NCBI GenBank assembly: GCA_024741835.1
Contig: JAENRP010000470.1
Location: 1 to 27,188, forward strand
Direction: 5' to 3'
Source of the DNA: Diplocarpon mali
Lineage: Eukaryota; Ascomycota; Leotiomycetes; Helotiales; Drepanopezizaceae
DNA length: 27,188 nt
A model generated the notes under the pieces. It did no database searches. It was not told the DNA's origin and saw only the letters and a program-made list of their open reading frames with translations. Shown piece after piece: positions 1,796 to 26,597 of this stretch; within the stretch, counting starts at the first letter, position 1, and each line of letters opens with the position of its first letter. Made by a program: the position numbers and the translations under genes.

Positions 1796-4425
1796 ATGGA
1801 TTCTATTAACTTAGATAGTTAGTATAAAACGATAATGGCCGTATTTAAGGCTATTACTAATCACTTTCCCCTTCCTAGTTCCCTTAGTACTTCTTACTTT
1901 ATAGGCGCTAATATTACTAATTTCCTTAAGTAATATAAGGAAACTTATTACGATTTTGGTATTATATAAGAGGATATGATTTCTCGACTTTTTTACTACT
2001 ATGACTATATAAGTAAAGATATTATTAAATCCCTTCTTAAATAGAAAACGCATAGTTTATAGGAATTCCTTATTAAGGCTCTTAAGTCTGAATTCCGAGA
2101 ATTTGATAGATAGTAGATTTGCGATACCTTGGCTTTCTTAAAGGAATTTATTCTAGTCACTTATACTCTTAAGGAACTTAAAAACTACTATCGGACTTTT
2201 ATTTGTATATTAAATACCTTAATCAGCTAGAAAATACTTAGCGAAGTTGAAAGAGGCCGCCTTTTCTTACTTAGATTACCTATTAGCCTTTGAAATAAGA
2301 TCATTAAGCATTTTAAGATTAATAAGTAAGACCTTATAACCTTTGCCTTATTTAAGGAATTCTTAGCCTTTGCTTTAAAATCAGATCTTAGTAAGAGAAC
2401 TATTAATACTATAGAGTAGGAAAAAGCCCCTACTCCCTCTTATACTAAAGACCTTAAGAGCCTGGTCTAAGAATACTTAAAGGCTTTAGAAGTTATAGAG
2501 GAGGTAAAGAAGAACCTAGTGGTTATACCTTTCACTTGCGGTCCTAACCTAGGAGTAAGATCCAACCTTAGAATTAAGGAACTTAAGACCTAATTTATAG
2601 AACTCTAAATCTAAAGCTTAGAAACTAGGATTAATAATCTCTTATAGGAAAAATAGTATATTTCCTAATTTAATAATAGGTAAAACTCGGCTACTATAAG
2701 CCAATATAGTAGTTCCTATTACCAGACTCTTACTTCTTATCATTTGGAATAACTAGCTAATATAAGAACTCAATAGTTGATTAAAGAAGGAGAAATTAAT
2801 CCTAACTAGCACTTTATTAATATTAATACTATAGGGTACTAAGGGAATGGCAATAGAAGACGATTAACTTGCAACTTTTGCAATAATAAAGAACCTAACT
2901 GCGCTTTATATAAGTATCGTAACAATTGCCCTCTTTTCTATTGTTTTATTAACACTAGGGTTATATATATTAATAAGTATAGGATACTTTGCATTAGAGA
3001 TCTTAGGCTAAAAGCTATCCCTATTAAAAAGCACTAGAATCGCTTATAGTTATAAACTGTTCGAATAATGATATATAATATAAAATAGGATAAGAATTTA
3101 GTCGAACGATAGCGTATTATAGATATGAATGCTAAAATTCCAACTTATATATATACTAGTCCAACTAGCAACCTACCTAAGGGAGTTCTTAAGGACCTAG
3201 CTTCTAATTAAACAACTATAGAAGTTAAAGGCATCTCTGTCTTAGGATAGGTTAATAATAATATGTTTGCTAATATTAATGCTACTTCTGTGTTTAGAAA
3301 CCCTTGGAATACTTAGTGTCCTTTTAGATCTACTACTCCTTTAATACTAATAAAACCAGCTAAAGTCCAGAAATCAACGCGTATAACTTAGGAATCTTAA
3401 TATGGAGTTTAAACGCTAAAAGATACCTAATAATCTGGAACCGCAATGGATAAGGATGAAGCCGATATAGTAGACGAATTGATTAGAGATATAATAGATA
3501 AAGATGGCTTTAAGCTTAAAGATTAAGAAGTTGAAGTTATTACGCGGACCCTTGACCTTAAGCGAAAGAGATAGATGTTAAAATAGGAGAAATTCGTTAA
3601 TAAATACGCTAGTTTAACCGCAATAGAGAAAGCTGTAGAGAATATTATAGCTTAGTAAATTAACTTTATATTTAAAGACCTATTTAGTTTGACTGGACGC
3701 TTTAATAAAGTATTAAGAAAGCATATCCTAGTTACCTTTAAAAATTTGAATAATAATAAGGAAATGGAAATTGTAATATAAAAGAACTTTAAGAAGCACT
3801 TAGCCTTAATCAAATGTCTTTAGATTGCAAAAGACAAAGGAACCTAAAGGTACTATAATATTATAGCAATAGCTTTGATATTTTAGAATATTAATTGAAA
3901 TTGTTTAGTAGTTGTAATAAAAAGCCCTATTATTATTTATTTTATAAAAGAATCAGTTAAAGCAAAGGCTCTAATCGATTATAATTCAGAAGTTAATATA
4001 ATAATTAGAAAAGTAGTAGAAATAGCTCAATTGATAATTATTAATAATCGACTCCTTATTTATTCAACTGTCTCTAGATCGAAATACAATTTTAATAGAT
4101 AGGTGAAAAATATAAAGGTTAAAGTCAAAGGAATCATTAATTATACTAACTTTCTAATAATAGAGAATTCTTCAAATGATATTCTTTTAAGAATGCCCTT
4201 TATTTTAAAATCTTAGCTAATATTTAATTATCCTAGAGATAGGCTTATAAAAGCTAGCCTTTAAAATATAGATCGATCCTTAAAAGGATAAATGGTTATC
4301 GTAAGAGATATAGCCGAATTTTAAAACGAGGTTTCGGAAAATAATTAGCTAGCATAAGGGCTAAGCTTAATACTAGTAAAGGAAGGCACCTAGCGAGGAG
4401 TTATAGTAAAAGAAAGGTGAGTTTG
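1796..4425 (+). pseudogene. Gypsy-1 gag-protease frame
   Basis: This would encode the structural Gag polyprotein and the aspartic protease that cuts it. All of it is in frame 2. The ATG at 1796 is followed by a capsid-like domain to about 2400, a linker with a palindromic module (2534-2557), and a Cys-rich zinc knuckle at 2870-2929. The knuckle's Cys codons are at 2870, 2879, 2900 and 2927, and two Tyr codons (2909, 2915) are probably former His. The protease motif A-L-I-D with S-E-V-N after it starts with Asp at 3977; the usual D-S/T-G reads D-Y-N here. The second retropepsin motif, I-L-L-G-M-P in ancestral form, is near 4183-4200. Many internal TAA/TAG stops are present. The frame gives way to frame 1 somewhere between about 4330 and 4449, by overlap and frameshift or by an indel linked to the module at 4449. 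Confidence 0.85.
2534..2557 (+). repeat. Palindromic module 1 (gag linker), A-B' type
   Basis: This 24-bp copy has half-site A followed by the complement of half-site B. It lies between the capsid-like domain and the zinc knuckle. In the gag frame it reads T-C-G-P-N-L-G-V. Confidence 0.8.
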
Positions 4426-4448
4426 CCGATTTTAAATAATAGCAATTT

Positions 4449-4473
4449 GACTTATAGTCTTGGACTAGGAGTC
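4449..4473 (+). repeat. Palindromic module 2 (protease-RT linker), A-B' type
   Basis: This 25-bp copy has ends GACTT and GAGTC. In pol frame 1 it reads T-Y-S-L-G-L-G-V. It lies at or just after the point where coding moves from frame 2 to frame 1. Confidence 0.75.
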
Positions 4474-6577
4474 AAATCTGGAATTTTAAAAATTGGTGCA
4501 ATTAGAGTTTTATTAGCTTAATAATTAAGAAAAAAGAAAAATAAGGTAGAGAAGAGAGTTTGTTTTATAAATTTTGATAATTTACCAATTATTTTAAAAA
4601 ACTTAAAAACCATTTATAGGCTAGACCCGCAAGTGAAAAACAATAAAATTACTAATAATATTTCTATTTATATACTTTAAATTAATAATTTAGAAAATCT
4701 TTTATTTATTTTTAAAAAGGAAAATTCAGATCATTTTATAGGATTTGATAAAAAAGGAAAGAAGTAGAGAAGCATAGTATTAGCTAATATTTAAACTATA
4801 TATAAAAGTAAGACTAATAAAGTACAATTAGTAGATTAGGGAATCTCTAACGGCTTAAAGCTTAAAGGATTAGATAATTGGTTTAAATAAGATAAGAAGC
4901 TTCGACCTTTGAAGCTAGGTAGCAAATTCGATAAGTTCATTATAGGTAGATTTTCTAATAAACCTATTAGATATCGACTAATAAAAGAACGTTTCGATAT
5001 ACTAAAAATTAAAGAAGACTTAATAGAGTAAGAACGCAAACTACTTTATAAAACCTTAATAAATTGAGAGGATGCTTTAGCTTTTGATTAGACGGAACTT
5101 AGCCAGATTCGAGAAGAGGTTACGCCTTATATTAAGATTAAGATAATACCTTATAAAGCTTAGTAAGAGAAAACATTCGGGGTTCCTAAAGCTCTTTAAG
5201 AAAAGGTAATCGAAATGTTAAAGGATAGGCTAAAGCAAGGTGTTCTTAAGTTCTATAATAGCCCTTATAAGAATAAATAATTCCTAGTTGTTAAGAAGGA
5301 GAAGGGAACTTATAGATTAATAATAGCAGTAGTAGAGATAAACCGAGTAATTGTTAAAGATGCTAACGTTCTTTTAAATATAGATAAGTTTTTAAATGAA
5401 TTCGCAGGATTAACCTATAGCTCTCTTATTAACTTCTTCTTTAGATATAACCAATTTATTCTTAATGTTAAATCGAGAGATATAATAGCAATTTAAACCC
5501 CTCTTAGGCTACTTCGAATAATAAGATTACCTTAAGGGGTTATAAATTCGATCGCTTAATTTGTTTAAGTAATTTATAAGATACTAGTAGATTGTATACC
5601 TAATATTGCGCTCCCTTATATAGATAATATAAGAGTAAAAGGATCAAGATCATTTTATAACTATAAAGAAGTTCTCCTTAGTATATAACGATTTATAATA
5701 GAATATATTTAAAACCTGGATTAGGTGCTTATACGATTCGAAAGGGTAGGAGTAATAGTTAGTCCGAAGTTATAATACTATCTTCTATCAATGGAAATTG
5801 TTAGTTTTATTACTAATTCTAATGGCCGAAGTCCTTAGAGGGCTAAAGTACTTAAAATCGACGAATAGAAGAAGTATAATAATATGGCAAAAGCTCGCGC
5901 ATTTATTAGAGTTATAGTATACTATCGCATTTAGATTAAGGATTTTGCTAAAAAGGCAGTACCTATTTACTCCTTATTTTAGAAAGGGGCTGAGTTTTAA
6001 TAGGAGAAACCCTAAATAGAGGCTATAAAATAATTGAAGCAAGCGTTGCTTAAGGCGCCTTATCTGATTAAAATAGATTATAGAGCTAACGCTAGGCTAA
6101 TTATACTAATAGTTGACGCAAGCTTAATCAGATGGGGTACTATCCTTTAATAAGCTGATAGCTAATAGAAAAGACATCTAGCTTGCTTTAAAAGTAGTCT
6201 TTAGAATCTAGCGGAAATAAAGTATAATATTATTAAATAGGAATGCAAAGGCGCTTTAAAGGCGATGAAAAAGATGAGAAGCGACCTTTATAGCACTTAC
6301 TTTATTTTTAAAACTGATGCTAAAGTGCTAGTAGAATAATTAAATAGAGCTGTAAGCGACCTACTAGGAGCCTTATTAATAAAATGGATTGCTTAAATAA
6401 GACTAATGGACTTTAAAGTCAAACACATTCTAGGAATGAAAAACACTACTGCTAATGGCCTTTTAAGAAGAACTCGGCCCTACCCCTTTAATTTAATTAA
6501 AGAAGACGAAATAGATATTAATAAATAGGTAGAAAACGAAGTTAGTTATCTATTGATATATTGCCTTAAAGGGACTT

Positions 6578-6602
6578 GACTCGCGAGCCTGGCCCGCAAG
6601 TT
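6578..6602 (+). repeat. Palindromic module 3 (RNase H-integrase linker), A-A' type
   Basis: Both halves are type A, so it is a near-perfect 12+1+12 palindrome; the arm mismatches are transitions. In pol frame 1 it is read in the alternative open frame (L-A-S-L-A-R-K), unlike most copies. Confidence 0.8.
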
Positions 6603-8012
6603 AAATAAGAGAATTTTATTACCTAACTACTTAAGTAACTTTAAAGAAATCGCGAAGTTTTTAATTATATTTAAACGATTAAAGATAGTTGCTCTTAAGG
6701 ATTTTTAGAAATTCAAAGCTAAAGCTCTAATTTATCTAGTATAAGGAAGACAATTGTTTAAAAGGAGCGATAACTTATTCCTTATATAACTCTGCTTAAA
6801 TAACGAAAAACTAAAGGCTAAGGCTATTTAAGATATTTATAAGGAAACTGGCTATTAAGGAGCTAAGTCCACTTACTATTAACTCTTGAGAAAATTCTTT
6901 TGGAAAGGCTCTTTTAAAGATTATAAAGCTTTTATAAAGAGTTGCGTCCTTTATTAGAAATGAAAACCTAATTATAAGGAAAATCCCTTATTCTTAACCT
7001 AGCTATTAGGCCTTTTTTATAAAGTCAGCCTTAATGTTATATAAGTACTAACTATTAAGAATAGGATAATATATTTTGCTTTAGTAAAGGAAGACCTATT
7101 AAGATGGCCTAAAGGACGACCTTTAAGATCTGCTAACTTTAAATCTATTATAAAGTTCCTTTAAGAAGACGTAGTCTATCGCTATAGACTTTTTAGCAGA
7201 TTAACTATTAATAGAGGCCTTAAAAATAAAGGAGTAGTTAAAGCTTTCTTATAAAAATATAATATTAAACAGGTTCAAATCTTAGTATATAACTCGAAAG
7301 CTAATAGAGTGGTAGAATAAGGATACTATAATATTCTTAATAGTCTATTTAAAGTTACTTGCAAAGGATTTAAGGATTAGATAAAACGCTTTTATAGAAT
7401 ACTCTTTGCTTATCAAACGATAATCTATAAACCAACTAGAGTTATACTATTCTTCCTTATCTATAGTAGAGAGGCATAGCTCCTTCTTAAATCCTAATGG
7501 CCTATTTAAAGATTGTTCGACTATAGTCAAATTCGGAACCGTTCCGATTTGCTTACGATAAGATGCTAATAACTTAAGCTTTAAGATATAGATATAAAGG
7601 AAATTATTCTATAAAAGAAACGATATTAAGAAAAAGCTAAGGAAGCATAGGCTGCTTCTAAAGTACTTAAAACGCACCCTATTTGAAAAGATGATCTTAT
7701 CCTAGTTTATGATATTGTAAAAAGTATTAATATATTAGTAGATACTAAACTTGACTATTAATAGCTTAGTCTATTTAAGGTTAAATCTAAGTAGAAAGAT
7801 AAGGGATACTATTCTCTTTAGGAACTTAATAGAATCGATATTAAGAGAACCTTTACAGCTAACCGATTAAAGCGCTTTTATTAATGCGATTAGACCTTAT
7901 TCCCCTTAAAAGACGAATTAGAAATTGATACAACCTCTGAATCCTCTATAGGAACCGACGGCGATATAAGCAATTTTGAACCCTCAGATAAAGACTAAGA
8001 TTTTTCCAATTT

Positions 8013-8037
8013 GACTTATAAGCTGGTCTTGCGAGTA
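8013..8037 (+). repeat. Palindromic module 4 (pol C-terminus), A-A' type
   Basis: This 25-bp copy is more decayed than module 3. In frame 1 it reads T-Y-K-L-V-L-R-V. It lies past the integrase, about 120 bp before the probable end of pol. Confidence 0.65.
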
Positions 8038-8160
8038 AAGAATATTAAAATACCTAACTAATCGCAACCTTAAGTTATTATTCTTAAAATATCCGAAGAA
8101 CGCAAATAGGAATATCGAACGATTTCCTAGCCTATCAATTGTCCTACCTTCCTCTAATCC

Positions 8161-8430
8161 TTATTTTTATATTTTTAATAAGGTCGCCTCCTTTGTTATT
8201 TAAGATATAGATCTTTTAAGATTACTTTAAATTCTTACCTACTTTGACTTATTTTGCATTCTTAATATTAGCCTTTAATTATAGCATTCCTATTACTTTC
8301 CTTAAATAATAAATAAAAAGTCCAATTTCCTTAATATATATATAGTAAACTTATTGCAGCTTATATGCCCTTTTAATTCTTATATCCTATTGAACTTTCT
8401 TATTTATATTCCTTATCTTTTATAAGTAAT
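8161..8430 (+). other. Spacer between pol and the accessory frame
   Basis: About 270 bp are AT-rich with stops in all frames. No promoter or motif is recognisable apart from AT runs such as the one near 8335-8345. Confidence 0.4.
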
Positions 8431-10665
8431 ATGCCTTTAAAGAATTTACAAATGGTTTTATCTATTATAATAAGGGATAAATAAGCACTAGTTATAAACT
8501 TCTCTTAAGACGGTAGAGCTATTGCATTATTAGAGAACTTTAAATCGACCTACGCAGCCTTAGGAGATATAGAGTAATAAAAACTCCTTTTAGCTTACGC
8601 GAATGCTATTAATAACCTTTTAACTTAAGTGGCCCTTGGAATTCTCCAATTTGACGACTTCTTAATTGAAGAATTAAGATTGAAGGGAATCTCTAAAGAG
8701 GAATTCTTGGCCGATGCAGATTAATATATAACCTTAGCTAACACTTTTAAAATAGACTAAGATAAAAGGGAAGAATCTATTCGACGATTAGATAATTTAG
8801 CCACTAATAAGAGAGGACTCCTATTTCGTTCGCGCTTTTTAACAAATATTAATTCTAATAATAGAAGGCAAGTGTTATTAAAAATTCTTAAGGAAAATAC
8901 TCTTATAGCTAAAGCTATATAAATTCTTAATTTCTTTATTATTTAAGAAGGAGTAGTAAAATTCCGAAGCAATCGAATTCGCAGTTGCAGATTTGTAAGC
9001 TTATTTAATATAGTACTTATAGCAGCTGATAGGGCTATAAAAAGATCAAATTAGGCTATAGATATTACCTTACCTAATAGTACTATTATTAATATACTAA
9101 GGCTCTGCGCTTCTGCTTATAGTTTACTTATTTTAAAAGAGAACTGGACTCTTATATTAAGGTTTAGATAAGATTTCTTTAATAATAAAGAAGGGAATTG
9201 GTTATTTGTAATTAAGCCTGCCTTGAAATTCGCTTCTTAACTTAAAGATATAATAAGTGCTAAACTATATAATTTGACTTGCGGTCTTAGATTAGGAGTT
9301 AGAAATGAGAATTTTAAAACTGGACCTAACTTGCCTTTTGCTGAAATGATTTTAAAAACCGCTGCTAAACAAATTGCTTAAACGCTTAGCGCAGCCTCTT
9401 TAGAATTTTCGGAATCTTTAAGGGACTCTCCTTTAGCTAAACGACCTATTTTAGCTCAACCTTTAAAAAGGATAGATCATTTAATAGTTACCTTAGCTAA
9501 TTTGCAATTTAAAATTAAAGGATTGTGCGCTTACTTAAACTCTTTCCTTAATAACTTAAAGGAGCTAGTTCTTAACTTCTTTATATCTATATGCAACTGT
9601 TTTAAAAACGATAATATAAGGGAAGACCCTATTCCTACTACTCTAAAGACGACTAGGAGAGCTATTAGATAGATTTAATAACTTATTTTAAATGAGTTCG
9701 CTCTTACAGATATTGTTCAATTCTTTAATAATTATAGAAGTTAAGAACCTAGTCTCTTAGATGCTAAGCGAGACTATTTTATCTTATAAGAAAGAGAATG
9801 CGAAGAGGAATCTATTAATTAGGACATTTGTGATTATAGCAATATGCCTTAATCGGTCATTCTTAACCTCGAGCTTAAAGAACGATATAATATTCAAGTA
9901 TCCTTTGCAATAAAGACTCGCTTTCGATAGTATCTTTTTAATATAGAAATCGAAGGGAGAAGACTTTGCGACCTTTATATTCGCTCTTTTTCAATTTACT
10001 ATAGTTTTAATTATAAAGGATTTAATATTAATGAAACTATTAAATACCTTGAACTTCTTTATATAATAGAAGATGTCGATCTTTTTCTAATCTACCTTAA
10101 TAATCAGTTCTTTATCTCTTTAAGGATATACAAATCTAACCTATTGATAATGGAGGCATCTTTAGGTACTATAAAATTTAAGGCTGATCCTGAAGCCTTA
10201 AAGGCGTTAGAGCTGATTAAATAGAATAATTCTTTCTTTTCGATATTATTAAGTAATAAATAGTAAGAGGAAATAGAGGAAGAAGGGTCAATTATGATGC
10301 TTAAACCCTTTAGATACCGCTTCCTAATCGACAATTTTACTACTAATGATAGTGCTTTTACAAGTATATTCCTCTCTATTATAAGATAAGAAGTAGAGAT
10401 ATACCTTTATCACTTCTACCCTATGGATAACGCGACCTCTATACCTTCTTATTTTCTTTATAATATAATATTTAGTCTTACTTAATAAGTCCTTCGGATA
10501 TATTATAAACTCTACCTCTTAGCTATAATAGCGAAAAGTAGAGGAGCCTATTAGCTTACGGCCTACCCTAAACCTCCTTAATTGATTAGCCTTAGTCTTT
10601 ACAATTAAGTTGTTTCGATAAAGAGGGATGCAAGTGCTACTAATAAAGAAATTCCGATTTTCTGA
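8431..10665 (+). pseudogene. Gypsy-1 accessory frame, first part; function unknown
   Basis: From an ATG at 8431, frame 1 runs 745 codons to a TGA at 10663. Every interruption before that is TAA or TAG where CAA/CAG would fit, which suggests a real reading frame later damaged by RIP. I do not recognise the product: it has no gag knuckle, protease, RT, integrase or clear envelope signature, and no convincing transmembrane segment. It is rich in Leu, Ile, Lys and Asn. A palindromic module at 9276-9300 is read in frame as T-C-G-L-R-L-G-V. The terminating TGA is formed by the first bases of the next module at 10664, and a second open stretch begins there in another frame. It could be a captured host gene, an envelope-like or regulatory protein, or part of another element. 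It is within the LTRs, so it belongs to Gypsy-1 as inserted. Confidence 0.6.
9276..9300 (+). repeat. Palindromic module 5 (accessory frame), A-B' type
   Basis: This 25-bp copy has ends GACTT and GAGTT. The accessory frame continues unchanged on both sides, so the insertion here added a multiple of three bases. Confidence 0.8.
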
Positions 10666-10688
10666 CTCCTAGGCCCGGCTCGCAGGTC
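10664..10688 (+). repeat. Palindromic module 6, B-A' type, at a frame switch
   Basis: This 25-bp copy has ends GACTC and AGGTC. The upstream accessory frame (frame 1) terminates in its first bases, and the downstream frame 3 reads through it as T-P-R-P-G-S-Q-V. Confidence 0.85.
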
Positions 10689-11485
10689 AACTCCCCTAAT
10701 AATAGAACTATTGACTATCATATGATTCCTATTGCAAAACAATCGACTGGAGAATTTACTATATAGGAAAAGTCTTATAAGTTATCTATACTTATACCCT
10801 ATTGTCTTAAGAACTCTTAATAGATCTCGTTGAATCTAGCGTAGAGCACTATATAATAAAAAGAGCTGAATACTAAGGAGAAAATTATCTTAAAGGAATA
10901 CGTTTCAAACGACACTACTCTATTCTTAGTATTTATAAGATAAGGTACATTTATTGATCTTAATTTGGAATAGGAACCTGGAAAGGGCGGCTTTTTAACT
11001 ATTAGCAATAACTATACAGAAGTTATTAGCAATGATTCACTTAAGAATGGCACTAACTTAGAAGATTTTCTCATTAACTCACTTAGTATAAAGAGACTAA
11101 GCATAGTAAGATAGGGTGCGGCTAGAGAATCTTCTGCAAAGTTCTATACAACCCTTGGGATAACGAAAGGCGGTCTATTATTAGAGGCCCTTATAGGTAG
11201 AAGATTATAGAATGACCTATTAATAGTAATGGCTATAAAGGAGTTGTTCTCGAAGGATGTAGCACAACTGATAATATATTTAAAGAAATACAAGTAAGAA
11301 CTTTTTAACGATTTTGCTAATACTTAAAAGCTAGTGCAATAACTAGAACTATAGTTATATAGCGACAAATCCTAGGCTAAGACGAAAGGCACTAACGATA
11401 ATATTAAGGCTAATAATATAATTGATAAGACAATTCTTCTCGAGAAGTACAGTACTAAAAAGCCTTATGCAAAAACCCTTGATAC

Positions 11486-11510
11486 GACTCCTAGGCCTAG
11501 CCCGCGACTC
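11486..11510 (+). repeat. Palindromic module 7, B-A' type
   Basis: This 25-bp copy reads T-P-R-P-S-P-R-L in the second accessory frame. Its right end is GACTC instead of GAGTC, so the outermost arm is partly lost. Confidence 0.7.
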
Positions 11511-11910
11511 AATCTAGAGAAAGGCAAGGCCAAGGAAGTCGTGGCCGTAGAATCTCCTGCCGCGTCCTCCTTAATAGCAGATGACTCTCTAGAGAATGAT
11601 AATAATAATAAAGAGGATGATAATAATAACGCTATAATATAAGTCTCCCTCTTTATCGGTAGAAGCCGTCAAACTATACTAGCATCTTTATAAAATACTA
11701 AAGCTCTTATAACACTAAGACCGGACTCTTCTAATACTAATAGTGAACTATTAAGAAGAAGTAGGCACTTTATAAAGAGAGTATTATCTAGTGATAGTTC
11801 TCCCTATCCCTTAAAGAGAACTAAGGAAAATTGATATCTAGATTAGTATTATTTTTAATTGTTTTTATAACTCTATAGCTTATTTGTTTGTTTTGCTAGT
11901 TTCGTTTTCT

Positions 11911-11935
11911 GACTCTTAGGCCCGGCCTATAGGTA
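11911..11935 (+). repeat. Palindromic module 8 (3' UTR), B-A' type
   Basis: This 25-bp copy begins GACTCTTAGGCC and ends AGGTA. It lies after the last recognisable frame, so modules are not limited to coding DNA. Confidence 0.75.
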
Positions 11936-11952
11936 AAAAGTGTATAAAAAAA

Positions 11953-11964
11953 NNNNNNNNNNNN
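11953..11964. other. Assembly gap (12 N)
   Basis: Twelve unresolved bases between an A-run and a T-rich run. The true length here is unknown. Confidence 0.98.
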
Positions 11965-12142
11965 CTCTTTTTTTTTCCTTTTACCTTTGATAATAATATA
12001 GCCCTAGTTTAGGCCTTTTAATATATTAGTTTTCTCGCACTTAGGGTTTGCTAGTGATTAATATGCTATTGCCTTAACCTATATTGTTTTATATTCTTTG
12101 CTAATAGTAGTAGGGGCTACTACTTTTGTTATTTAGGATATA

Positions 12143-12390
12143 TATAGAGACCTAAGATAGATAGGTCTTATGATATATATCATATGATCGGCGCAGGCTA
12201 GTAGGAGGATAAAAGGGCCACCTTCTATATATAGAGATAGCGCGTATCGCCATAGTACTAAATATACCCCATACTTGGGACTTATCCCTAACATCTTATC
12301 TAGGAGAGCCCGCTTGTGGTGCTTCCTCCTCTTGTTTTTAGGTCTTCCCTTAGGCCTATTCTTATGTTGTCTCCTCCCCAAAGTTTTATA
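12143..12390 (+). repeat. Gypsy-1 3' LTR (248 bp)
   Basis: This is the full-length partner of 605-852. It keeps more CpA/TpG than the 5' copy in places (for example CCCCATACTTGGG), so the two copies were mutated unequally. ATCC follows directly at 12391-12394. Confidence 0.92.
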
Positions 12391-13643: not shown

Positions 13644-13838
13644 TATTGAGCTTAAGTGAGTCGGCGCAATAGGTAATAGAAACTTCTAGAGGTCGATGGT
13701 CGATATATTGGTAAGAGTTAGGGAAGGAAGGTTACCCCTTTCTTACTTATAGCTATATACATATTAACATCCTACTAACTAAGCAGTAGGGTCATATGAT
13801 AATATATTAGAGTAATAGCTATATTACCTATCTTAATA
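13644..13838 (-). repeat. Copia-1 3' LTR (195 bp)
   Basis: Aligned by eye to 19549-19743 it has about 19 differences, all transitions. On the + strand it starts TATTGAGC and ends CTTAATA, the RIP-altered form of TGTTGAGC...CTTAACA. Confidence 0.95.
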
Positions 13839-13847
13839 CCCCTACTC
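13839..13847 (-). other. Copia-1 polypurine tract
   Basis: On the - strand GAGTAGGGG abuts the 3' LTR, the expected position and composition for the plus-strand primer. Confidence 0.7.
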
Positions 13848-13975
13848 AGACCTTACTCTAATTGACCTATAGTTAGGAAAATAATAATTATCCTTTTGCG
13901 CTAATCTAACTCCTAGGTATCTCTTTAAATTAAAAATAATTAATTAATAGCAACCTCTATTGAAATTACCAATCC

Positions 13976-14141: not shown

Positions 14142-15850
14142 CTAAGCCCCTACTGTCTTCTGCAACCTTAGTATATCTTTAAACGCTTTAAACTTTGTAA
14201 CTATCTCTAGTGGCTTTATAAATCCATCTGCTACTATTCGATTAGTTAGGATATAGGTAATCGATAACTTATTCTTTACAATAAGGTCATAGATGAAGTG
14301 GTAGGCAATATCGATATGTTTCGATCGCTTATGCAAGTGTAGATTCTTTATAAGTGTAATCGCCTTTGTATTATCTACTTAAAGATTAATACAGTTCCTA
14401 TCTTATCTAATATACTTAGTAAAACCTATATCTTTTAGAACTTGGGCGATCTATAATCCTTACTTGCAATTTAATAATATTAATATATATTTAGCCTTAG
14501 TGCTTGCGGTAGCCACTGATTTCTGCTTCCTACTTCCTTATAATATAGGTCTACTATATAGTATTACTACGCTTCTAAATATACTTTTCTAACCTTTTAT
14601 ATTTGCCTAGTTAGAATCGGTATATACCTTAAGCTTTGCGCTTATATATTTCGTTAGTCTGTATCTTACCTTCTATATGATTATCGATTGAAGGTACCTT
14701 CTAAGTCGCTTGACTACATTCTTATATCGAATTGTCAGATCCTTTAAGTTCTGACTAAGTTACCTAGTAATAAAGGCGATATCTGGTCTTATATATACTA
14801 TAGTATATATAATCGCTCTAATATCCTATTAGTACTTCTTTAAATCTCCTCTTTGTTTATTTTCATTAGCAGGCTCTAACTTATTATACTTTCCTTTAAT
14901 TAGAGTACGCTTTGGCTTAAAGTTGGGAGCATAAGTAGAGAGTCCCATTCGGTCTAGGATCTTCTTAGTATACTACTCTTAATCTAACTAGAGTTCTCGA
15001 GTAGAGCGGTTCTTTATAATATAGATGCTGAGGATCTTATAAATTCCCCTTAGATCCTTAGTATTAAAACGTTTCCAAATTGTTATAAAGAACCAATCTA
15101 ATTGAGTAGTTGTTTTCGCAGCTATAGTAATATCGTTAATATATAGTAGCAACTTAATTCTACGCTTAGTATAGGTAAATAGATAAAGGTTAGCTAGGCT
15201 TTGAACAAATCCCATTTCCATTAGAGTAGAGCTATATAAGAGGTTCTAATTATAGGCTGATTGTTTGAGCCTATAGATACTACAGAGTATACAAAGGGAG
15301 TGGCTAGCATATATAGGAATACTATTAGGTCGGGAGAGAAAAATCTATTCTTTTATAGTCGCTTTAGTAAATACATTTTTAATATCGTACTATCTGTATT
15401 TAAGGTCCTTAACGGCTACTATTGCTATGAATATGCAAAGGGTATCTATGCGAACTATTAGCGCGAACGTATTAAAGTAGTCTTCTCTATACTATTAGGA
15501 GAAGCCCTTAGCTATAAGCCTTGCCTTGTAATATTCTAGGGTCCTATCTGCATATATCTTGATTATAAAGACCTACTTTATTAATACTAGGTTTACGTCC
15601 TTTAGCGTTGGTTCTTCTATTTATATGCCATTTGCAATAAGAGAGCTTATCTCCTCTTAGATTGCCTCATTCTATACTGCTCTATTCTCCAAGTTGTTAA
15701 TAGCTTTGTTATACATCTTTAAAAGAGAGATTTTCATTATCCCCTTAGCGGCTAGGAACGCATTATTTTTATTAAAGCTCTATTGGAGTTTAAGCTTATA
15801 GATCCTATATGCTATTATGGCCTAGATACGCTTGGACTCGCGTTCGTCTA
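14139..15850 (-). pseudogene. Copia-1 pol C-terminal half: RT and RNase H
   Basis: The - strand reads a Copia reverse transcriptase. A Y-K-A-R-L-I-A-K-G-F motif lies near 15510-15540. The polymerase motif Y-V-D-D reads Y-I-N-D near 15130-15145, with G-F-V-Q-S-L-A upstream and R-F-N-T-K-D-L downstream. RNase H follows: a T-D-S-N motif, a region resembling S-V-A-A-T-A-S-T-K-A, and the C-terminal motif R-S-K-H-I-D-I near 14320, with I-V-A-D-G-F-I-K-P near 14215-14240. The frame ends at about 14139. Upstream is a Glu/Ser-rich integrase-RT linker (about 15850-16100), typical of Copia polyproteins. Stops are TAA/TAG. Confidence 0.9.
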
Positions 15851-16149
15851 AGGTGTCTTCCAGTTCTAGGTCTCTATTCCTCTTTAAAGGCGTAGGTTCG
15901 GCTATAGGTTCTATAGGCTTATCATTTAAGGAACCGCTTTCTAATAGTAGAGGCTTATCGTTACTTATACCTATTTCGGGAATATCCTTTACTATAGGTG
16001 CTTTAACTAAAGGGATAATGATATTAAAGTTATTCTATACTTTAGGCAGTTCGCAAATAATAGGAATAGTCTATTCGGCCTTTAGGTAATTAGTAGGTTA
16101 TCGATCAGCAAGTACGCTTAATGTACTTAAGCTTAAAGAGAAAGGTTAT

Positions 16150-17110
16150 TAGTTCGGCTTGATAGTATTACTATTAAGTGGTATACCTTGCGAATCTCTA
16201 GGTATGCGGAGCTTTAAGGATAGCTCCCTCCTATTTTGAGATTTATCGAACTTAACTATTAAGAATATGATTACTCGCCCTAGGTCTAGCGTGTATACTA
16301 TCTATTGCTTTATTATCTATTTAATATACTTAATAAATATATACTCTTTACCTCGGTCTATTAGCTTCTTGCTCTTTATACTTGCGGGCTAGGACTTCGG
16401 GCTGATATAAGAGTAGCAGACGCTTTTAAAGACGCAGATATGGTCTAGGCTTGGTTTCTATTTAAAATATACTTTATATAATGATATTTAAGTGCTATTG
16501 ACTATTAGTCCACTACCTATTCTATTTTGTAGGTATGCGTTTGCCTTAATCGTAAGGTCCTAGAATTCTAATAGTAGGTCAGCATCTTGCAATAGAGTGC
16601 GATAATTAGTCTCTACTTACTAAATGCTTCGCTCGGCGATGCTATTTTAATAAGAACCTTTATATATTATAGTTAGTTTATAACAAACTCTTTGTTTTGC
16701 CTATTTGTTAAGCTTTACTTTAATCTCTAATGCGTTATTAGACCTAATAGCTATTAGCTTCAACTAGGTCTAGCGTTCCTTTATTACTTTTTAAGTTTCT
16801 AGCTTTTCTATAAGCTTAGATTTAGTCCTAGCGCAAATAGTCTATATCTACTAAGTGGAATTATCTACTATTTGAGAAAACTAATTATTTCCTCTAATTG
16901 AGGTCGTAAATAGTCTAGCAGTATTAATAGATATTAGCGCTAGTATTAAATCTTTCTATAGACTAAGCTTAGTTCGCGTCCGATTTCAAAGTTTTATTAG
17001 CTTACAAATTCGGCATATTAAGCGATCCTTTAGTACTTAGATCTTCCGTTTTAAGATTAAGACTTTATATAAGCCCTTTAATTTCTTTAGCCTTAGATAT
17101 ACGAATCTTC
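16150..17110 (-). pseudogene. Copia-1 integrase
   Basis: The - strand reads the zinc-binding C-x2-C (Cys codons at 17013-17015 and 17004-17006). The core follows, with the second acidic residue in A-I-R-S-N-N (Asp to Asn at 16737-16739) and the Glu of I-A-E-R at 16632-16634, the usual spacing. A one-base frame slip lies between those two motifs. The C-terminal part has a region reading V-F-x-x-V-C-Y and ends near 16150. Inactive. Confidence 0.82.
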
Positions 17111-17239
17111 TATATATTAGCTAATACCTTAATAGGCTTTTGGCTTTTAATAGCTTTAATAGCCTATTATCAGTCGATGCTTTATTATTAGCAGCTAAAA
17201 AGGACTAGTAATAGCAGTTTAAGGTTTTGCCGTTTTCTA

Positions 17240-17622
17240 ATTGCGAGCCTAGCTTAGGAGTCGTTTTTAGTAAAACCGCGAGATCTACTTGCGGTCCTAG
17301 CTTAAGAGTCGTCTCTAACGAATTTGCGAATTTCACTTACAGTCCTGGCCCAAGAGTTGTCGTTAGCAAATTTGCAAAATCCACTTGCGATCCTAGCCTA
17401 AGAGTTATTTCTACTAAATTCACTTATGATCCTAGCTTAAGAGTCATCTTCAAGGACACTTTACACTCTACTTATAGTCCTAGCTTAAGAGTTATTTTCG
17501 CGAATTTTACTTGCGATCCTAGCTTAAGAGTCCATCTATTCTCCCTATTTTTACTTAATTGTATTAAGGCAAAGAGTGCACTTTCTTTAAAGGAATCTAC
17601 TTATAAGTCTGGCTTAAGAGTC
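17240..17622 (-). repeat. Array of eight palindromic modules (Copia-1 protease-integrase spacer)
   Basis: Eight modules start at 17240, 17287, 17335, 17383, 17422, 17470, 17509 and 17599 (23-24 bp each, A-B' on the + strand). Start-to-start distances are 47, 48, 48, 39, 48, 39 and 90; the first becomes 48 if that copy is started one base earlier, and all are then multiples of three. In the sense (-) pol frame each copy reads T-L/P-K/R-x-G-x-Q-V, separated by about 5-8 residues with a recurring F-A or V-x-F-A pattern. The array therefore forms a repeat region in the polyprotein between protease and integrase. The opposite strand is also open across it, giving a 142-codon frame of T-C-D-P-S-L-R-V repeats that I regard as a shadow. 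Confidence 0.88.
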
Positions 17623-17649
17623 AATTTCTATAATATTACCTTTAAGATA

Positions 17650-18010
17650 ATATAAAGTCCATCTTTGATTTTAGCTTTAAAGATTACTTTATAGTTGTTA
17701 TTTATAAATTATATAAATTGATTATTGAAAACTCCTATACAATTCAACTCTATATAGATCTTATAGCTAGATAAAAGATTAATGCTTAGGCTAAGCATAA
17801 GGAGAACATTTTGTAAAAGGAAAAAAACACTAGCGATATTCATCTCTATTATACCTATCGAGTCCGCATATAACCTTCTACTACTAACCTTAATAGAGCG
17901 CCTTTTTATTTTAATAAGCGGGCCTTTAAATAAGTAGGGTTTATTAGTTATATATGCTATGCAACTAGTATCACTATATCAGTCGGATTCAAGGATCTTA
18001 CGGAGATCGG
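17650..18010 (-). pseudogene. Copia-1 aspartic protease
   Basis: The - strand reads S-D-T-S-C (Asp at 17970-17972), matching the Copia protease D-T/S-G-A-S-C signature with decay, followed by hydrophobic strands to about 17650. It would process the Gag-Pol polyprotein. Its C-terminal end runs directly into the module array. Confidence 0.7.
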
Positions 18011-18099
18011 CTTTTAAAATATAGGCATCTTTATTATAATTATCATTTGAATTATCGGAAGTGGATTTAGGTTCAAATGACCCACTATTATTATTAGAG

Positions 18100-19200
18100 G
18101 TATCTGCTAAAGTTTTAGCTAAATAGCCTTTTCCTTTGCCTTTTCTTAATAGTTACGGCCTTCGGCGGGATAAGGGCAGTTTGCTTCTTGACTTCTGCTT
18201 CGATTGCTTCTTAATATTAAAGCTAGCGACTATATTGATCAGTTGCCTTCTAACTTTACAATTAGTAATATTATAAGCACTATTATAGAAGTAGTATCCC
18301 CGATGAGCTTAAGGGCTTATCCTACGCTCCTTCCTCTTCTTAGGCTTATCGTTGCCCTATAATGCGGCATTTGCCAATTTAGAGCGTCCTTTAAGGTCTT
18401 GCTCAATAGTTCAAAGGAGGTCGATCTTCTTATAGATCTTAAGGTTAGGTTAGATGAGAAGAGATTGTTTCGTAATAGCGAACTTAAAAGGGAGGCTATT
18501 AAGTAAGAAACTAAAAAGCTGAGTTTCCTTAAAAGTCATAGCTATCCTAAGATCTGCGGCTTTTACTCTCCTCCTTACTTTATATAATATAGACTAGGTA
18601 GAGTCTATATTTATATCTATATCCTTACTATCTTTATCTTTTCTATATTAAAATAAAGTGATCTACTATAGTAGATGCTAGGTATTAAGGGCAGTTATTT
18701 AAGAGTATTTTACCTTTAACGTATCCTATCTTATCTTTGTATTATTATGAACTCGAACAAAATCTCGGTCTTCGTCGCTTAAACCTTTATTAATCTTAAG
18801 CTTGCATTTGGCTAAGGCTAGCCTATACTCCTTCTCCTTTTCTATATTCAAAATCTGCCTTTAGGATTCTTAGTTATTATCTACTAAAGCTCTTAGGCTA
18901 AGCTTATTTAATATATTTAGCAAATCCTTAGTAGTTGTATTAGCTATTAAAGTAGAAGTAGACGAATTAATAGAGGGAGTATAGGAGGCTATTCTCGCAT
19001 ATTCAATAAGTGTCTTTTAAATTGCTATTTCAATGCCTTTGCTCTTAAAGTAAAGCTCTAAATCGTCGAACTATTATTGCTAGTTCTTTTAAGAGAGTTA
19101 GAGGTCTTTAGGCTTAGTGTTTCGATCGGAATCGGATGCTATTGCCGTTTTAAATAGAATTGCGTTTAAAATCAAATAAATTAAATAGTTAAGGGCACTC
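18100..19200 (-). pseudogene. Copia-1 gag
   Basis: Nucleocapsid precursor of Copia-1 on the - strand. A gag-type capsid region (F-D-D-L-E-L-Y-F-K-S-K-G-I near 19040-19080) is followed by long helical stretches. A decayed zinc knuckle lies around 18258-18295, where Tyr codons stand for Cys/His and the last Cys (18258-18260) is kept; a Ser/Asn-rich linker leads to the protease. No original ATG can be identified with confidence, and the coding-like frame fades near 19200. Stops are RIP-type. Confidence 0.75.
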
Positions 19201-19258
19201 CTCCTATCGAAAAGTTGAAATGATTAAATAGCGGGTGTTATAGAAGTATTAAATAGGG

Positions 19259-19430
19259 AGGAAGTCCTCTTATTGAAAAGAGTTTTTAGGCTATAACGTA
19301 GGGAATCACACCTCTTATAAAATACAATAAAGCAAGGAATCACACCTCTTGCAGTACCAAAGGGGTTATAGAGCAAGGAATCACACCTCTTGTAATACGG
19401 GTTGGCTAAATAAGGAATCATACCTCCTAT
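19259..19430 (-). repeat. Short repeats in the Copia-1 leader
   Basis: The 15-bp core GGAATCACACCTCTT (+ strand) occurs at 19302, 19336 and 19377, with a variant at 19414 and a weaker one near 19262. Spacing is irregular (34-41 bp). Several copies are flanked by GCAAG/CTTGC, so each can form a small stem-loop. They lie between the primer binding site and gag, where packaging or translation signals occur in retroelements. Role unproven. Confidence 0.75.
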
Positions 19431-19533
19431 TCGCCGATTGCTCGCCTTTTACTACGAGTCTTATTCAACTTCCTACTAATAGTTGCAGCGCAAGTGCTTT
19501 CTAAAGGAAGTCAATAATCTATTATCAGTCTAT

Positions 19534-19548
19534 CCAGGGCTTATAACC
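19534..19548 (-). other. Copia-1 primer binding site, internal initiator-tRNA-Met type
   Basis: Directly after the 5' LTR the - strand reads GGTTATAAGCCCTGG. With one TpG-to-TpA change reversed it is GGTTATGAGCCCTG, complementary to the anticodon stem-loop of fungal initiator tRNA-Met (CAGGGCTCATAACC). Drosophila copia is known to use such an internal tRNA fragment as primer. Confidence 0.75.
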
Positions 19549-19743
19549 TATTAAGCTTAAGTAAGTCGGCGCAATAGGTAATAGAAACTTCTAAAGGTCG
19601 ATAGTCGATATATTAGTAAGAGTTAAGGAAGGAAGATTACCCCTTTCTTACCTATAGCTATATATGTATCAATATCCTACTGACTAAGCAGTAGGGTCAT
19701 ATGATAATACATCGGAGTGATGGCTATATCACCTATCTTAATA
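19549..19743 (-). repeat. Copia-1 5' LTR (195 bp)
   Basis: Partner of 13644-13838. On the + strand it starts TATTAAGC and ends CTTAATA. Confidence 0.95.
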
Positions 19744-22260: not shown

Positions 22261-22429
22261 TTATCCTTAAGGTTGCTAATTGCTTAGTCCTCCTCTTTTG
22301 AAGACGTTTCTTATTTATCCTTATTAGTCCTATTGCTTTTTAAATATACTTTATTATCCTCTTAAGTAAGGTATGCTTTATATATTTTATCTATTGGCTT
22401 ATAGCCTTCGGCTCATCGGCTTACTATAT

Positions 22430-24438: not shown

Positions 24439-24737
24439 TATAGGTTTTATATTAGTAATTAATATTTATATAAATATAGTTAAGTACTTATTATTAAAAA
24501 GAATTTATTATAATATTTATCTATCTCTATATAATTGAAATAGTACCTTTATACCTTTGAATATCCTCTCTCTTATAATCCCTCTTAGCTATATATAGAT
24601 ATCCTTCTAAGGTCCTCTGGCTGAATAGCCGTTTGAAATATATATAAAACCCCTTATATTATATATAGTATAGCTGTATAAGATGACCTTAGGAATAAGG
24701 ATAGCTTGCCTCTTGTATAGGAATCTGCGTACTAACA
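24439..24737 (+). repeat. Gypsy-2 5' LTR (299 bp)
   Basis: Begins TATAGGTTTT and ends ACTAACA (TGTAGG...AACA before RIP). A TATA-box-like TATATAAAA lies at 24641-24649. It matches 26598-26896 over its whole length with mainly transition differences. Confidence 0.93.
24641..24649 (+). promoter_or_regulatory. TATA-like box in the Gypsy-2 LTR
   Basis: TATATAAAA followed by CCCC, conserved in both LTR copies (also near 26800-26808). It is placed like an RNA polymerase II TATA element upstream of the LTR transcription start. Inference from sequence only. Confidence 0.45.
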
Positions 24738-26597
24738 ATTAATAATATTCTCTTTAATTATATTAACGATTTCTGCTCTACTTATTTAAATAATATTCTA
24801 ATTTACTTAGAAAATTCCTTTAATTATAAGATTTATATTAAAAAGATCTTAAGAATTCTTTAATACTATAGCCTTTAAGTAGATATTAAGAAAAGCGAGT
24901 TTAGAGTTACTAAGATTAGGTTCTTAAGATTTATAATTAGAGTTTATAGAATTAAGGTAGACTCTAATAAGGTCTTAGTCATTTAAGAGTAGAAATATGC
25001 TAAAAATGTATATAGTATATAAAGCTTCCTAGAGTTCTATAACTTCTACCGAAGGTTTATTTAAAGCTATAGTTATATTTGCCGACCTTTAATAGCTTTT
25101 ATAAGAAACGTTCCTTTTGATTTTAATAACGCTTGTAAAGAAGCTTAAGAAGCTCTGCGCTTAAGCCTTTAAATAATCCTGATTTTATACTACTATTACC
25201 CTTAGAAGCAGATAAAGCTTAAGATTAACGCCTCTAATAGCATAGTTGCCAGCGTACTCTTTTAACTTTAAGAAGACGATAATTACTACCTAATTAGGTA
25301 CTTCTTAAAGATAATAAATAACGCTAAGCTAAATTATCCTATTTATAATAAGGAGCTCTTAGCGATTTTTAAATCATTCTATTAGTATAAGGCAGAGCTA
25401 CTTAAGGCCTAGAAAACGGTATATATATATATAGATTATAAAGCCCTTAAGTACTTTATAATAACTAAGGACTTAATAGCTTAGTAGGCTCGCTAGGCGG
25501 AGTTCTTTACTAATTTCAACTTCCTTATTATATTCTAAATGGGTATAACGAATACGCTAGCTAATATACTCTTATATCGAGACTAGGAGCTGACCCCTTT
25601 TAAGGCTAAGAAACAAGCTTTATACTACTAGTAGCTCTTACCTAATAATAAGCTCTCTATAGAAGTACTTGCTACTAAAGGCGATTCTACTCCTAGGCCC
25701 GGCCTACGAGTGACTTTAGCGCAAATCGATTCTACTCTTAGGCCTGGCCTACAAGTAACGATTATATCAATTGCGCTAATAGAGGCACCTGCCGACCTAA
25801 CGTCTAGGGTTAAGTACAATATAGCAAACTACTATATTATTAATAAGGTTATTTAAGCTAATAAAACCTCCTTAAAGCTATAGAAGCTCTAAGATAAGGC
25901 GTAGAACTATAGCCTTAACTATAAACTTAGCTAAGGTAAACTCTTCTTTTAAGGTAGACTTATTATACTATCCTAACCTCTCGAACTGCAAACGGCCCTG
26001 ATTTGTTATATATATAAGTAACCTTGCGTCGTATACACTAGAATTAGGAAAATAAGACTTTTAATAGGAAGAAAATACTATTAGAAAAGCCTTAGTAGCA
26101 ACGTTAGCACTTATATCTAAAACTATTATTATTTAAGAATAAAAGCTTATTATAATAAGACCCTAAGTTTCCTATAACCCTTGCCAATTCCTAAACGAGT
26201 ATATTAACACTTAATTATAGATTTTATAAAGCTCTTGCTTAACGAACTCGGCTACGATTTTTTATTAGTAATAATAGACCGATTATTAAAGAAGGTAGTA
26301 TCGATCTTATATAATAAGACAGTTGATATAAAAGGCTTTGCAAAGTTATTTTTAATTCACTAAATATGCTATTTCGGCATGCTTAACTCAATTCTATTAA
26401 ATAAAGGCGCCTAATTCGTTTCTACCTTTTAAAAAGAGCTCTATTAAATACTAAGTATAAAGGTTAAGCTAACTATAGCTTATAACCTTAATATTAATAG
26501 CCAAACTAAGATTATAAACTAGTATTTAAAATAACGCCTTAAACTATTCTACTTATACTATTAAGATAATTAAAGTCGTCTCTTGCCTTTAATAGAT
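24738..26597 (+). pseudogene. Gypsy-2 pol fragment: end of RT, RNase H, part of integrase
   Basis: Coding begins at the LTR edge with I-N-N-I-L-F and Y-L-N-N (Y-L-D-D in ancestral form, about 24775-24800). It continues with I-L-I-Y, the conserved K-K-S-E-F region, and S-F-L-E-F-Y-N-F-Y-R-R-F-I. RNase H has I-N-A-S-N-S-I-V-A-S-V-L (T-D-A-S in ancestral form), then K-E-L-L-A-I, an I-D-Y-K-A-L segment (T-D-H-K-A-L) and an N-T-L-A-N/D motif. Two modules sit in the linker. The integrase runs from a decayed zinc region to a core where D and E codons are mutated, and it stops at L-I-D-Y, exactly at the right LTR. Frames shift more than once, so small indels are present as well as RIP stops. Confidence 0.85.
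25688..25757 (+). repeat. Two palindromic modules in the Gypsy-2 RNase H-integrase linker
   Basis: Copies at 25688-25712 and 25733-25757, B-A' type, start 45 bp apart (15 codons). In the pol frame they read T-P-R-P-G-L-R-V and T-L-R-P-G-L-Q-V. Confidence 0.88.

Follow-up and report, generated by a model that had tools for sequence, protein, structure and literature searches.

Could a very short palindrome be copied as a unit of its own among the retrotransposons of a nuclear genome? This question is raised by a 27,188-bp stretch of Diplocarpon mali DNA (contig JAENRP010000470.1; the whole stretch is called the window here), for which a preliminary description had listed 21 copies of a 25-bp module, composed of a half-site, one base and an inverted half-site, in otherwise unrelated retrotransposons. 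The window was scanned with a matrix whose training set comprised 30 fetched loci and the window itself. The motif was confirmed at 21/21 of the listed positions, and three extra places (1525, 4612 and 16380) exceeded the threshold of at least 14 bits, which brings the window to 24 places; a weak match at 11368 (12.5 bits) falls below it. With both strands scored, these 24 places yield 48 hits, since the motif is near-symmetric; the mean over 20 first-order Markov shuffles was 0. The layout described earlier stands, whereas the unit size does not: the module is 23 bp long, an 11-bp arm being followed by one free base and the inverted arm, and its core starts at ACT, one base inside the 25-bp unit.

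The preliminary description held that a motif no more frequent than its composition predicts would not be an independent unit. Genome-wide, the exact 16-mer ACTCCTAGGCCNGGCC, whose count is independent of the matrix, has 207+198 matches and its reversed control 0+0, while a RIP-tolerant degenerate pattern for the whole palindrome has 8,066 matches and its reversed control 0, so the motif is far above chance. On these counts and the Markov shuffles, with controls of zero, a chance origin was rejected. Most of the copy-to-copy variation is accounted for by RIP, and the module before RIP was probably close to ACTCCTGGGCCNGGCCCGCGAGT. Before RIP, the arms apparently read A = ACTCGCGGGCC and B = ACTCCTGGGCC, which differ at positions 5–6; RIP would have turned CCTGGG into CCTAGG. 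At one locus of GC content 0.64 (L034), only half of the motif was matched. An Rfam search returned nothing, and a description of the module was not found in the full-text literature searched, a scope outside which subscription journals mostly lie.

The features of the window are listed in Table 1. Modules 10665, 11487 and 11912, formerly placed in a separate Copia element, belong to the same LTR-bounded element as 1525–9277, as the LTR repeat pair indicates. Likewise, the arrays 13977–14127 and 17239–17621, formerly assigned to Gypsy-2, are both in a minus-strand Copia element, which is recognized by its LTR pair and an RVT_2 match (14991–15245:-, E 1.3e-5, 25.3 bits, below the Pfam cut-off of 31.6); a weak Pol_BBD match is also present (17712–17978:-, E 0.0094, Pfam), and a protein search with a Copia integrase-RT piece gave no homolog. 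The plus-strand open frame at 17215–17652 (146 aa, the longest stop-to-stop frame of the window) was rejected as a gene, Copia being on the opposite strand; RIP may simply create no stop there. The Gypsy-1 reverse transcriptase and the block 24738..26597 are presumably Gypsy, judging by motif resemblance, and Pfam gave no hit on the RIP-degraded Gypsy-1 fragments or in the block, which is also RIP-degraded. Gypsy-1 has collinear copies across the genome. Two observations on these copies were discarded: L020 seems to lack module 11912 because of a stretch of N, and a 63% match of L027 to window 8083–8233 was not confirmed on re-test.

Table 1. Retrotransposons, modules and deletion junction in the window (strand given as + or -; a point stands for features without strand).
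Feature	Coordinates	Strand	Remarks
Gypsy-1, LTR to LTR	605..12390	+	LTRs 605-852 / 12143-12390, 248-bp direct repeat, 90%; 10 modules
Module B-A'	1525..1547	+	Matrix scan; same site in L027, L082/L110, L121; phase 1 in L110
Module A-B'	2534..2556	-	Matrix scan; common to L027, L029, L092
Module A-B', T at position 9 of both arms	4450..4472	-	Matrix scan and copy alignment
Module A-A', absent from the preliminary list	4612..4634	.	Matrix scan and copy alignment
Module A-A'	6579..6601	.	Coding phase 1 in L062, L066
Module A-A', diverged	8014..8036	.	Matrix scan and copy alignment
Module A-B', T at position 9 of both arms	9277..9299	-	Matrix scan; also at 398 in L112-L116
Deletion junction	10660..10665	.	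Fusion of the flank left of module Y with TG + module 10665
Module B-A'	10665..10687	+	Matrix scan; coding phase 0 in L029
Module B-A'	11487..11509	+	Phase 0 in 88-aa open frame at 11376
Module B-A'	11912..11934	+	~200 bp before 3' LTR
Copia	13644..19743	-	LTRs 13644-13838 / 19549-19743, 195-bp repeat, 90%
Module A-B', unit 1 of 64-bp array	13977..13999	-	Matrix scan
Module A-B', unit 2 of 64-bp array	14041..14063	-	Matrix scan
Module A-B', unit 3 of 64-bp array	14105..14127	-	Matrix scan
Module A-A', diverged, absent from the preliminary list	16380..16402	.	Matrix scan
8-module array, all A-B'	17239..17621	-	Starts 17239, 17287, 17335, 17383, 17422, 17470, 17509, 17599; steps 48/48/48/39/48/39/90 bp
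Gypsy-2-like block	24738..26597	+	Common to several fetched copies
Module B-A', unit 1 of 45-bp array	25689..25711	+	Phase 0; 1- and 2-module copies exist
Module B-A', unit 2 of 45-bp array	25734..25756	+	Phase 0

By our count, the module has about 25 unrelated sites, on both strands, which are spread over at least four families of LTR retrotransposons (Copia as well as Gypsy-like). Two clusterings of the fetched loci gave 19 and 21 flank clusters without mutual similarity; three overlapping loci (L016, L018 and L038) were excluded from these and from the breakpoint comparison, and the 21-cluster run omits 27 of the 30 Gypsy-1 loci (one being the window). The 40 loci L069–L108 came from lists of first hits, partly chosen to avoid known spacings, and are not random. 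The earlier view that the motif resides in different LTR families, at sites without common flanks and in both orientations, is upheld. Since it is also far above chance, a 23-bp unit must have been copied between places. On contig C1 (560 kb), the matches listed up to 522,786 fall in three transposon islands and one isolated place (292109), itself the remnant of an element related to Gypsy-1 that has its module at site 1525; among the first 100 matches listed for a pattern requiring a purine at position 9, which reach C24, none is on contigs C2, C5, C11, C14, C17, C18, C20 and C22. The module copies reside in LTR retrotransposons, some of them on contigs as long as 560 kb, and do not have the setting of organelle DNA. 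Had all copies arisen by ordinary duplication of one element, the module would, according to the preliminary description, be no independent unit. This holds for copy number, because most copies descend by retrotransposon copying of fixed sites, where they have multiplied with the host elements to thousands, and it does not hold for the number of sites.

The pairings seen in the window (14 A-B', 6 B-A', 4 A-A' and 0 B-B') agree with the earlier report of both orientations and of the first three types; of the two typing runs, one kept the overlapping loci L016, L018 and L038 and the other excluded them. Among 51 listed genome places, one is B-B' against 8.6 expected under free pairing, a count in which places within one family are not independent and the same overlapping loci, as well as L089, fetched for being B-B', are left out. 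With a purine at position 9, B-B' has 1 genome match, and the B-B' pair among the 51 places has T there; a near-total ban on B-B' was rejected, as the earlier patterns had required a purine at position 9 and one B-B' with T is listed. Outside modules, 46 half-sites were counted in 202 kb (overlapping L016, L018 and L038 dropped, 26 of 30 Gypsy-1 loci left out) against a Markov background of 98, so there is no excess, and half-sites as independent units or transposon ends were rejected. Therefore, the idea of exchangeable half-sites as units was abandoned: lone arms show no excess, the spacer is one base, and B-B' is far below free pairing. Arm types do switch occasionally at one site, as in the F6 family, which has A-A' in L080 and B-B' in L089.

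How does the module behave at its sites? No empty site was found at 6579, where 40/40 scored copies, counting the window's, hold the module; at the Gypsy-2 site, scored matches never cross the junction without extra bases, and no target duplication was found in the scored copies at either. In 30 Gypsy-1 copies (window included), 6579 and 8014 are present in all, 4612 in 27 and 4450 in 26, and the copies without the 4612 or 4450 module have unrelated sequence there. The window's Gypsy-1 carries a deletion of about 3.9 kb with both ends at modules, from the left edge of module Y to 2 bp before module 10665, and its junction is found in 2 genome copies; as TG is kept left of module 10665, there was no crossover inside the module. 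Other Gypsy-1 breakpoints (866/2335, 1593, 4498, 4773, 4828, 5558, 5834) lie between 26 and 924 bp away from a module edge. The array at 17239..17621 has 40 scored genome places, window included, at 84–100% identity. Array length differs by whole units between copies; for example, L120 has a 10-module version of this array.

We infer that new sites were seeded during reverse transcription of element RNAs, and we tentatively favour, at somewhat below an even chance, the view that LTR retrotransposons carry the module as an ultra-short palindromic passenger and that template switching seeded its sites. The near-palindrome would fold on itself or pair with another module on the same or a co-packaged RNA, so that reverse transcriptase could switch template there and copy the module to a new place. 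The surviving insertions would be those leaving the frame open in gag or in inter-domain linkers; the same switching would remove sequence between two modules, and slippage would produce tandem arrays. This reading, tentative as it is, draws on the unrelated flanks, the island restriction, the two frames, the deletion at modules, the hairpins and the whole-unit array changes. Against it, insertion events are not seen in the scored copies, the other breakpoints are off modules and RIPped folding is weak. The unmutated hairpins reach -21.9 kcal/mol for A-A' (z -5.2) and -13.9 kcal/mol for A-B' (z -3.0), and the RIPped forms only z -1.6 and -1.3. In an alignment of 32 rows, which we chose with B-B' copies omitted (for which reason its 0/32 B-B' is no fair test), pair 5–19 is unpaired in 22/32 rows, and the covariation score was reached in 12/500 shuffles. 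Since most A-B' stems retain the mismatch and covariation is weak, pairing itself does not seem selected, and a pure hairpin model leaves the B-B' rarity unexplained. The stronger form, in which a nuclear 23-bp selfish palindrome that itself encodes nothing parasitises Gypsy-like and Copia reverse transcription, hopping between RNAs by template switching and spreading through the genome by the transposition of its hosts, we consider rather unlikely.

The close rival, a possible reading though hardly a probable one, is the site of a dimeric DNA-binding protein, the host's or the elements', with one monomer per 11-bp half-site and, in most cases, an A half on one side or both; the site would have been captured by several LTR families and kept in many copies because the predicted bound protein would help in transcription, as a boundary or in anti-silencing, in the manner of the binding-site arrays of Drosophila gypsy. 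The two inverted half-sites have a constant one-base spacing and a free central base in the 32 rows, and substitute nearly independently at the one position pair considered (9/15, position 9 of the two arms, G/T: 17/4/6/5, Fisher p 0.21, 32 chosen rows). The scarcity of B-B' (1/51 listed places) fits such a site, and so does the spacing of Gypsy-1 modules, which is more even than a random placement would give (CV 0.45; P 0.003 for 13 sites, of which two were positioned by the spacing in the window, and P 0.037 for the 11 sites matched directly). In the 48-bp array, transversions number 6/154, 6/154 and 8/286 in arms against 25/166, 27/166 and 56/298 in spacers (pairs not independent), while module and spacer have diverged to the same degree in the 64-bp array (3/22 vs 6/41), and the module has altered more than the adjoining sequence at 2534 within Gypsy-1 and at the F6 site. 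A strong claim of purifying selection was dropped: local flanks, compared with the L004 row of site 16380 left out, look decisive, but whole-alignment windows do not, 3.7% to 54% of them being as conserved as the module, which makes its conservation only suggestive. Moreover, many sites are within coding frames, and a binding site leaves the spread of 23 bp to about 25 sites unexplained.

That spread, with the inverted arms and both orientations, would suit a miniature DNA transposon or its footprint, ending in the arms and moved by a transposase in trans, like REPs/REPINs. We judge this improbable, given the restriction to LTR elements among the places listed and inspected and the lack of an empty site or target duplication in scored copies; the 1-bp spacer leaves no body between terminal inverted repeats as in a MITE, and with lone arms at background no longer arm-ended element is seen in 202 kb. 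Recombination between modules, site-specific or homologous, would shuffle them between elements, and the junction at two modules and the arm-type switching in the F6 family (L080, L089) point that way; yet the retained TG and the breakpoints elsewhere make it slightly less probable still. A last candidate is a peptide repeat (TPGPGPRV / TRGPGPGV before RIP) that protein selection would maintain in gag and linkers. In the first loci, the frame that stays open longest across the module is in phase 0 in 156/165 cases, and in 77/77 if it has at least 90 aa (not independent). However, phase 0 at 10665, F5, F6, F8, L087 and L110:1186 is opposed by phase 1 at 1525, 6579 and L110:1293, one open frame of L110 holding three modules in two frames (a protein search with an L110 frame gave no homolog). 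Because different coding sites use two reading frames for identical DNA, the constraint is not on a peptide, which is refuted as main cause and very improbable altogether; third codon positions are also conserved, with the free central base the exception, and the 64-bp array is unable to stay in one frame.

To our knowledge, organelle and bacterial genomes have long posed the puzzle of ultra-short mobile palindromes, on whose mechanism there is no agreement. If the passenger reading is true, a nuclear LTR-borne palindrome with a reverse transcriptase and thousands of RIP-marked copies would make template switching directly testable; if the module is a protein-binding site instead, it would point to a factor adopted by both Gypsy-like and Copia elements. 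The Su(Hw)-site array of Drosophila gypsy, many copies of one protein-binding site, resembles the module in its multiplicity within one LTR element, but it is not palindromic, is confined to one family and has a known protein. Rickettsia palindromic elements are, like the module, palindromes within coding frames; however, these in-frame insertions are longer (about 100–150 bp), bacterial and in protein-coding host genes. Ultra-short invasive elements come from Podospora. They are cited alongside the GC-rich palindromes of Neurospora mitochondria, and the same source presents the Allomyces double-hairpin elements and Fusarium palindromic microsatellites as mobile, the latter linked to nearby indels (PMC7218506). 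These mitochondrial palindromes of filamentous fungi are short like the module, but they are other sequences in organelle DNA, and the accessible part of that source describes no carriage by retrotransposons (PMC7218506). Bacterial REPs, extragenic and proposed to move as doublets by the RAYT transposase, are similar in their palindromic units of about 20 bp, up to many hundreds of copies and some ordered tandem arrays; REPINs are inverted doublets, whereas the module occurs as single units or direct tandem arrays, also in coding frames (PMC3116915). The yeast mitochondrial GC clusters (GC42 etc.) are likewise very short, GC-rich, (quasi)palindromic and dispersed in many copies, with possibly RNA-mediated movement and a palindrome reportedly constrained (PMC4478555). 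They are mitochondrial and 32–42 bp long, have AG as target nucleotides and are known from sites both with and without the cluster (PMC4478555), whereas the module is 23 bp long and resides in LTR retrotransposons, with no empty site among the scored copies.

Scanning with a 23-position matrix, whose training set includes the window itself, gave 24 places of at least 14 bits in the window, compared with an average of 0 over 20 Markov shuffles, and all 21 places claimed in the preliminary description are among them. The module consists of two inverted arms of 11 bases each around a single free base. Arms were typed by position 5, where a purine defines A and a pyrimidine defines B. Among the 165 modules of the loci fetched first, some of which overlap, the pairings are 98 A-B', 56 B-A', 9 A-A' and 2 B-B', the prime denoting the inverted arm. 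Based on a RIP-tolerant pattern with a purine at position 9, the genome contains 1,831 B-A' and 784 A-A' matches and a single B-B' match, with a control of 0 for each; the last lies in locus L089, at site F6. The wider palindrome pattern, which leaves position 5 unrestricted and also accepts T at position 9, occurs at 8,066 places genome-wide (control 0), and among its matches listed (51, all on contig C1) there are 40 A-B', 10 A-A' and 1 B-B'. The B-B' module at C1:520859-520881, in which T is the ninth base of one arm, stands in a row with two further modules about 45 bp apart. Comparison of RIP states suggests that the arms before RIP were ACTCCTGGGCC (B) and ACTCGCGGGCC (A), which would therefore differ at two positions. 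The half-sites had been described as exchangeable. Half-sites as units of their own are not supported, since arms standing alone (46 in 202 kb) are no more frequent than in Markov sequence (98), while 457 arms are inside modules.

The window represents the whole of contig JAENRP010000470.1, in a genome of 49.37 Mb in 676 contigs, and is strongly marked by RIP (CpA 0.34 and TpG 0.48 of expectation; TpA/ApT 1.45). A carrier protein encoded at a GC-rich locus in the same genome is 100% identical to a Diplocarpon coronariae protein (96% of the query), followed by D. rosae with 88%, which points to D. coronariae, the apple-blotch fungus, as the probable host. Flank comparison grouped the modules into 19 clusters in one run and 21 in another. 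From 32 representative rows we count about 25 module sites, because sites 1525 and 2534 are each represented by two relatives, two C1 rows are probably a single site, and some rows are repeat units from the same array. The elements that carry them belong to at least four LTR families (see the table), and no module was found in unique, gene-rich DNA among the matches listed and read. On C1, the matches listed extend to position 522,786 of 560,066; they fall into three islands, and a single match stands apart from these, in locus L121 (C1:291400-292900). This locus is the old remnant of a Gypsy-1 relative, shows little sign of RIP (TpA/ApT 1.07) and lies in a stretch otherwise free of modules; its module, at site 1525, has T9 together with A15. 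Full-length Gypsy-1 seems unusually long, with an internal part of about 15.2 kb as estimated from the C1 copy and modules 0.2-2 kb apart. The direct repeat on either side of the Gypsy-2-like block may represent a pair of LTRs or else a different repeat present twice.

Host elements of the module and neighboring features. Both Gypsy names are based on motif resemblance, Pfam giving no match for these degraded pieces.
Feature	Window position	Other loci	Remarks
Family 1, Gypsy-1	605-12390	Relatives L027, L110	LTR-bounded
Family 2, Copia, minus strand	13644-19743		Repeat pair at 13644 and 19549; RVT_2 match under Pfam's cut-off
Family 3, Gypsy-2-like block	24738-26597
Family 4, second Copia		L022, L109	RVT_2 match in L022, under Pfam's cut-off
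Direct repeat	24439-24755 and 26598-26913		317 bp at 88%; flanks Gypsy-2-like block
Run of N	11953-11964	Same place in L009, L013, L020, L023, L029, L031, L037	After module 11912, near A run and T run; assembly gap or withheld sequence

Module positions are fixed within each family. For example, 30 Gypsy-1 copies, the window's counted, are 90-92% identical to that of the window, with almost only RIP-type differences near modules 6579 and 8014. These two modules are present in all 30 copies, while 4612 is present in 27 and 4450 in 26, the rest having unrelated sequence there. No empty site 6579 was found, as all 40 scored copies exceed the module-less query by exactly 23 bp. For site 25689/25734, queried without both modules and the spacer, 11 copies contain 23 bp extra and the remaining scored matches break at the junction, none passing it uninterrupted. 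Arrays change in length by whole units, that at 25689 having one or two 45-bp units and the Copia array 8 or 10 modules. In locus L120 (C8:300500-305650), the two extra modules of the Copia array form a 39+48-bp unit. The fixed sites and whole-unit changes indicate that most of the thousands of copies arose when their host retrotransposons were copied in the ordinary way. Ordinary duplication of one element had been named as the outcome that would exclude an independent unit; it accounts for most of the copy number, but the module sites cannot stem from it.

We also found a junction between two modules. To the left of module 10665, the window is unlike all relatives compared: the alignments of 12 loci, at 11 distinct places, start no earlier than 10662-10665, although looser scoring extends some of them leftward with reduced identity. 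This left flank is present in 40 scored copies, the window's counted, and the five others read all run into another module, Y, which is of A-A' type in most. The window's Gypsy-1 copy has therefore lost about 3.9 kb, the distance being estimated from the C1 copy together with the spacing in the window. The deletion ends at the edge of module Y on the left and two bases before module 10665 on the right, with one base of microhomology, and the junction is common to two copies. Between the other Gypsy-1 breakpoints and a module edge there are 26 to 924 bp; therefore, module-module deletion is one event and not a rule.

Then, is the module maintained as DNA or as peptide? Among the first loci, 156 of the 165 longest open frames across a module share one phase, as do all 77 that have at least 90 aa, a pattern that would fit a peptide repeat. 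Further loci refute it by their reading in two phases: L062 and L066 both read site 6579 in the alternative phase, and a stop-free frame of L110, which has 163 aa up to a run of N, carries three modules in two phases. In the module codons, third positions are conserved and the central base is free.

The module can be read in two ways. It may be a passenger of LTR elements, a tentative reading to which we give somewhat less than an even chance, and modules would then be copied to new sites by template switching during reverse transcription of these elements. The restriction to LTR elements, the unrelated sites, both orientations, the strong hairpins predicted for unmutated forms, the unit-wise arrays and the module-module deletion all fit such switching. 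It is also possible, though somewhat less likely, that the module is a dimer-binding site kept by selection, as its independent arms at fixed spacing, the rarity of B-B' and the conservation of modules in one array would suggest. In that Copia array, transversions are about four to seven times fewer in modules than in spacers; a lower rate was not found in the 64-bp array. Both readings can be true, with spread by switching and retention for a function.

Between divergent Gypsy relatives, site 1525 has 0 or 1 transversion in the 23 positions of the module (the one at the free center) vs. about 20% in local flanks, and the most divergent pairs at sites 2534, 10665 and 11487 have 0 or 1 vs. 7% to 16%. 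In contrast, module 2534 of L092 differs from the window's by one transversion, with 0 in 220 flanking bases. At F6, arm types have changed (to A-A' in L080 and B-B' in L089) and the flanks hardly. Since 3.7% to 54% of all alignment windows used are as conserved as the module, conservation beyond the flanks is only suggestive. Over the 32 rows, 83% of cells are paired, a value reached in 7 of 500 shuffles, and pair 5-19 is unpaired in 22 rows; the apparent covariation is weak. The bases at positions 9 and 15 vary almost independently of each other (17/4/6/5, p 0.21). Along one full-length Gypsy-1, modules are more evenly spaced than random (P 0.003 for 13 sites, two placed from window spacing; P 0.037 for the 11 directly matched).

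Among the papers that full-text searches listed, none described this element; the D. coronariae genome paper counts LTR elements, and "palindrom" is absent from its main text (PMC11527701). As far as excerpts of the sources describe them, the nearest in form include bacterial REPs (PMC3116915), the GC clusters of yeast mitochondria (PMC4478555) and the short palindromes of other fungal mitochondria (PMC7218506). Because it is located in LTR retrotransposons on large contigs, the module does not belong to the mitochondrial class.
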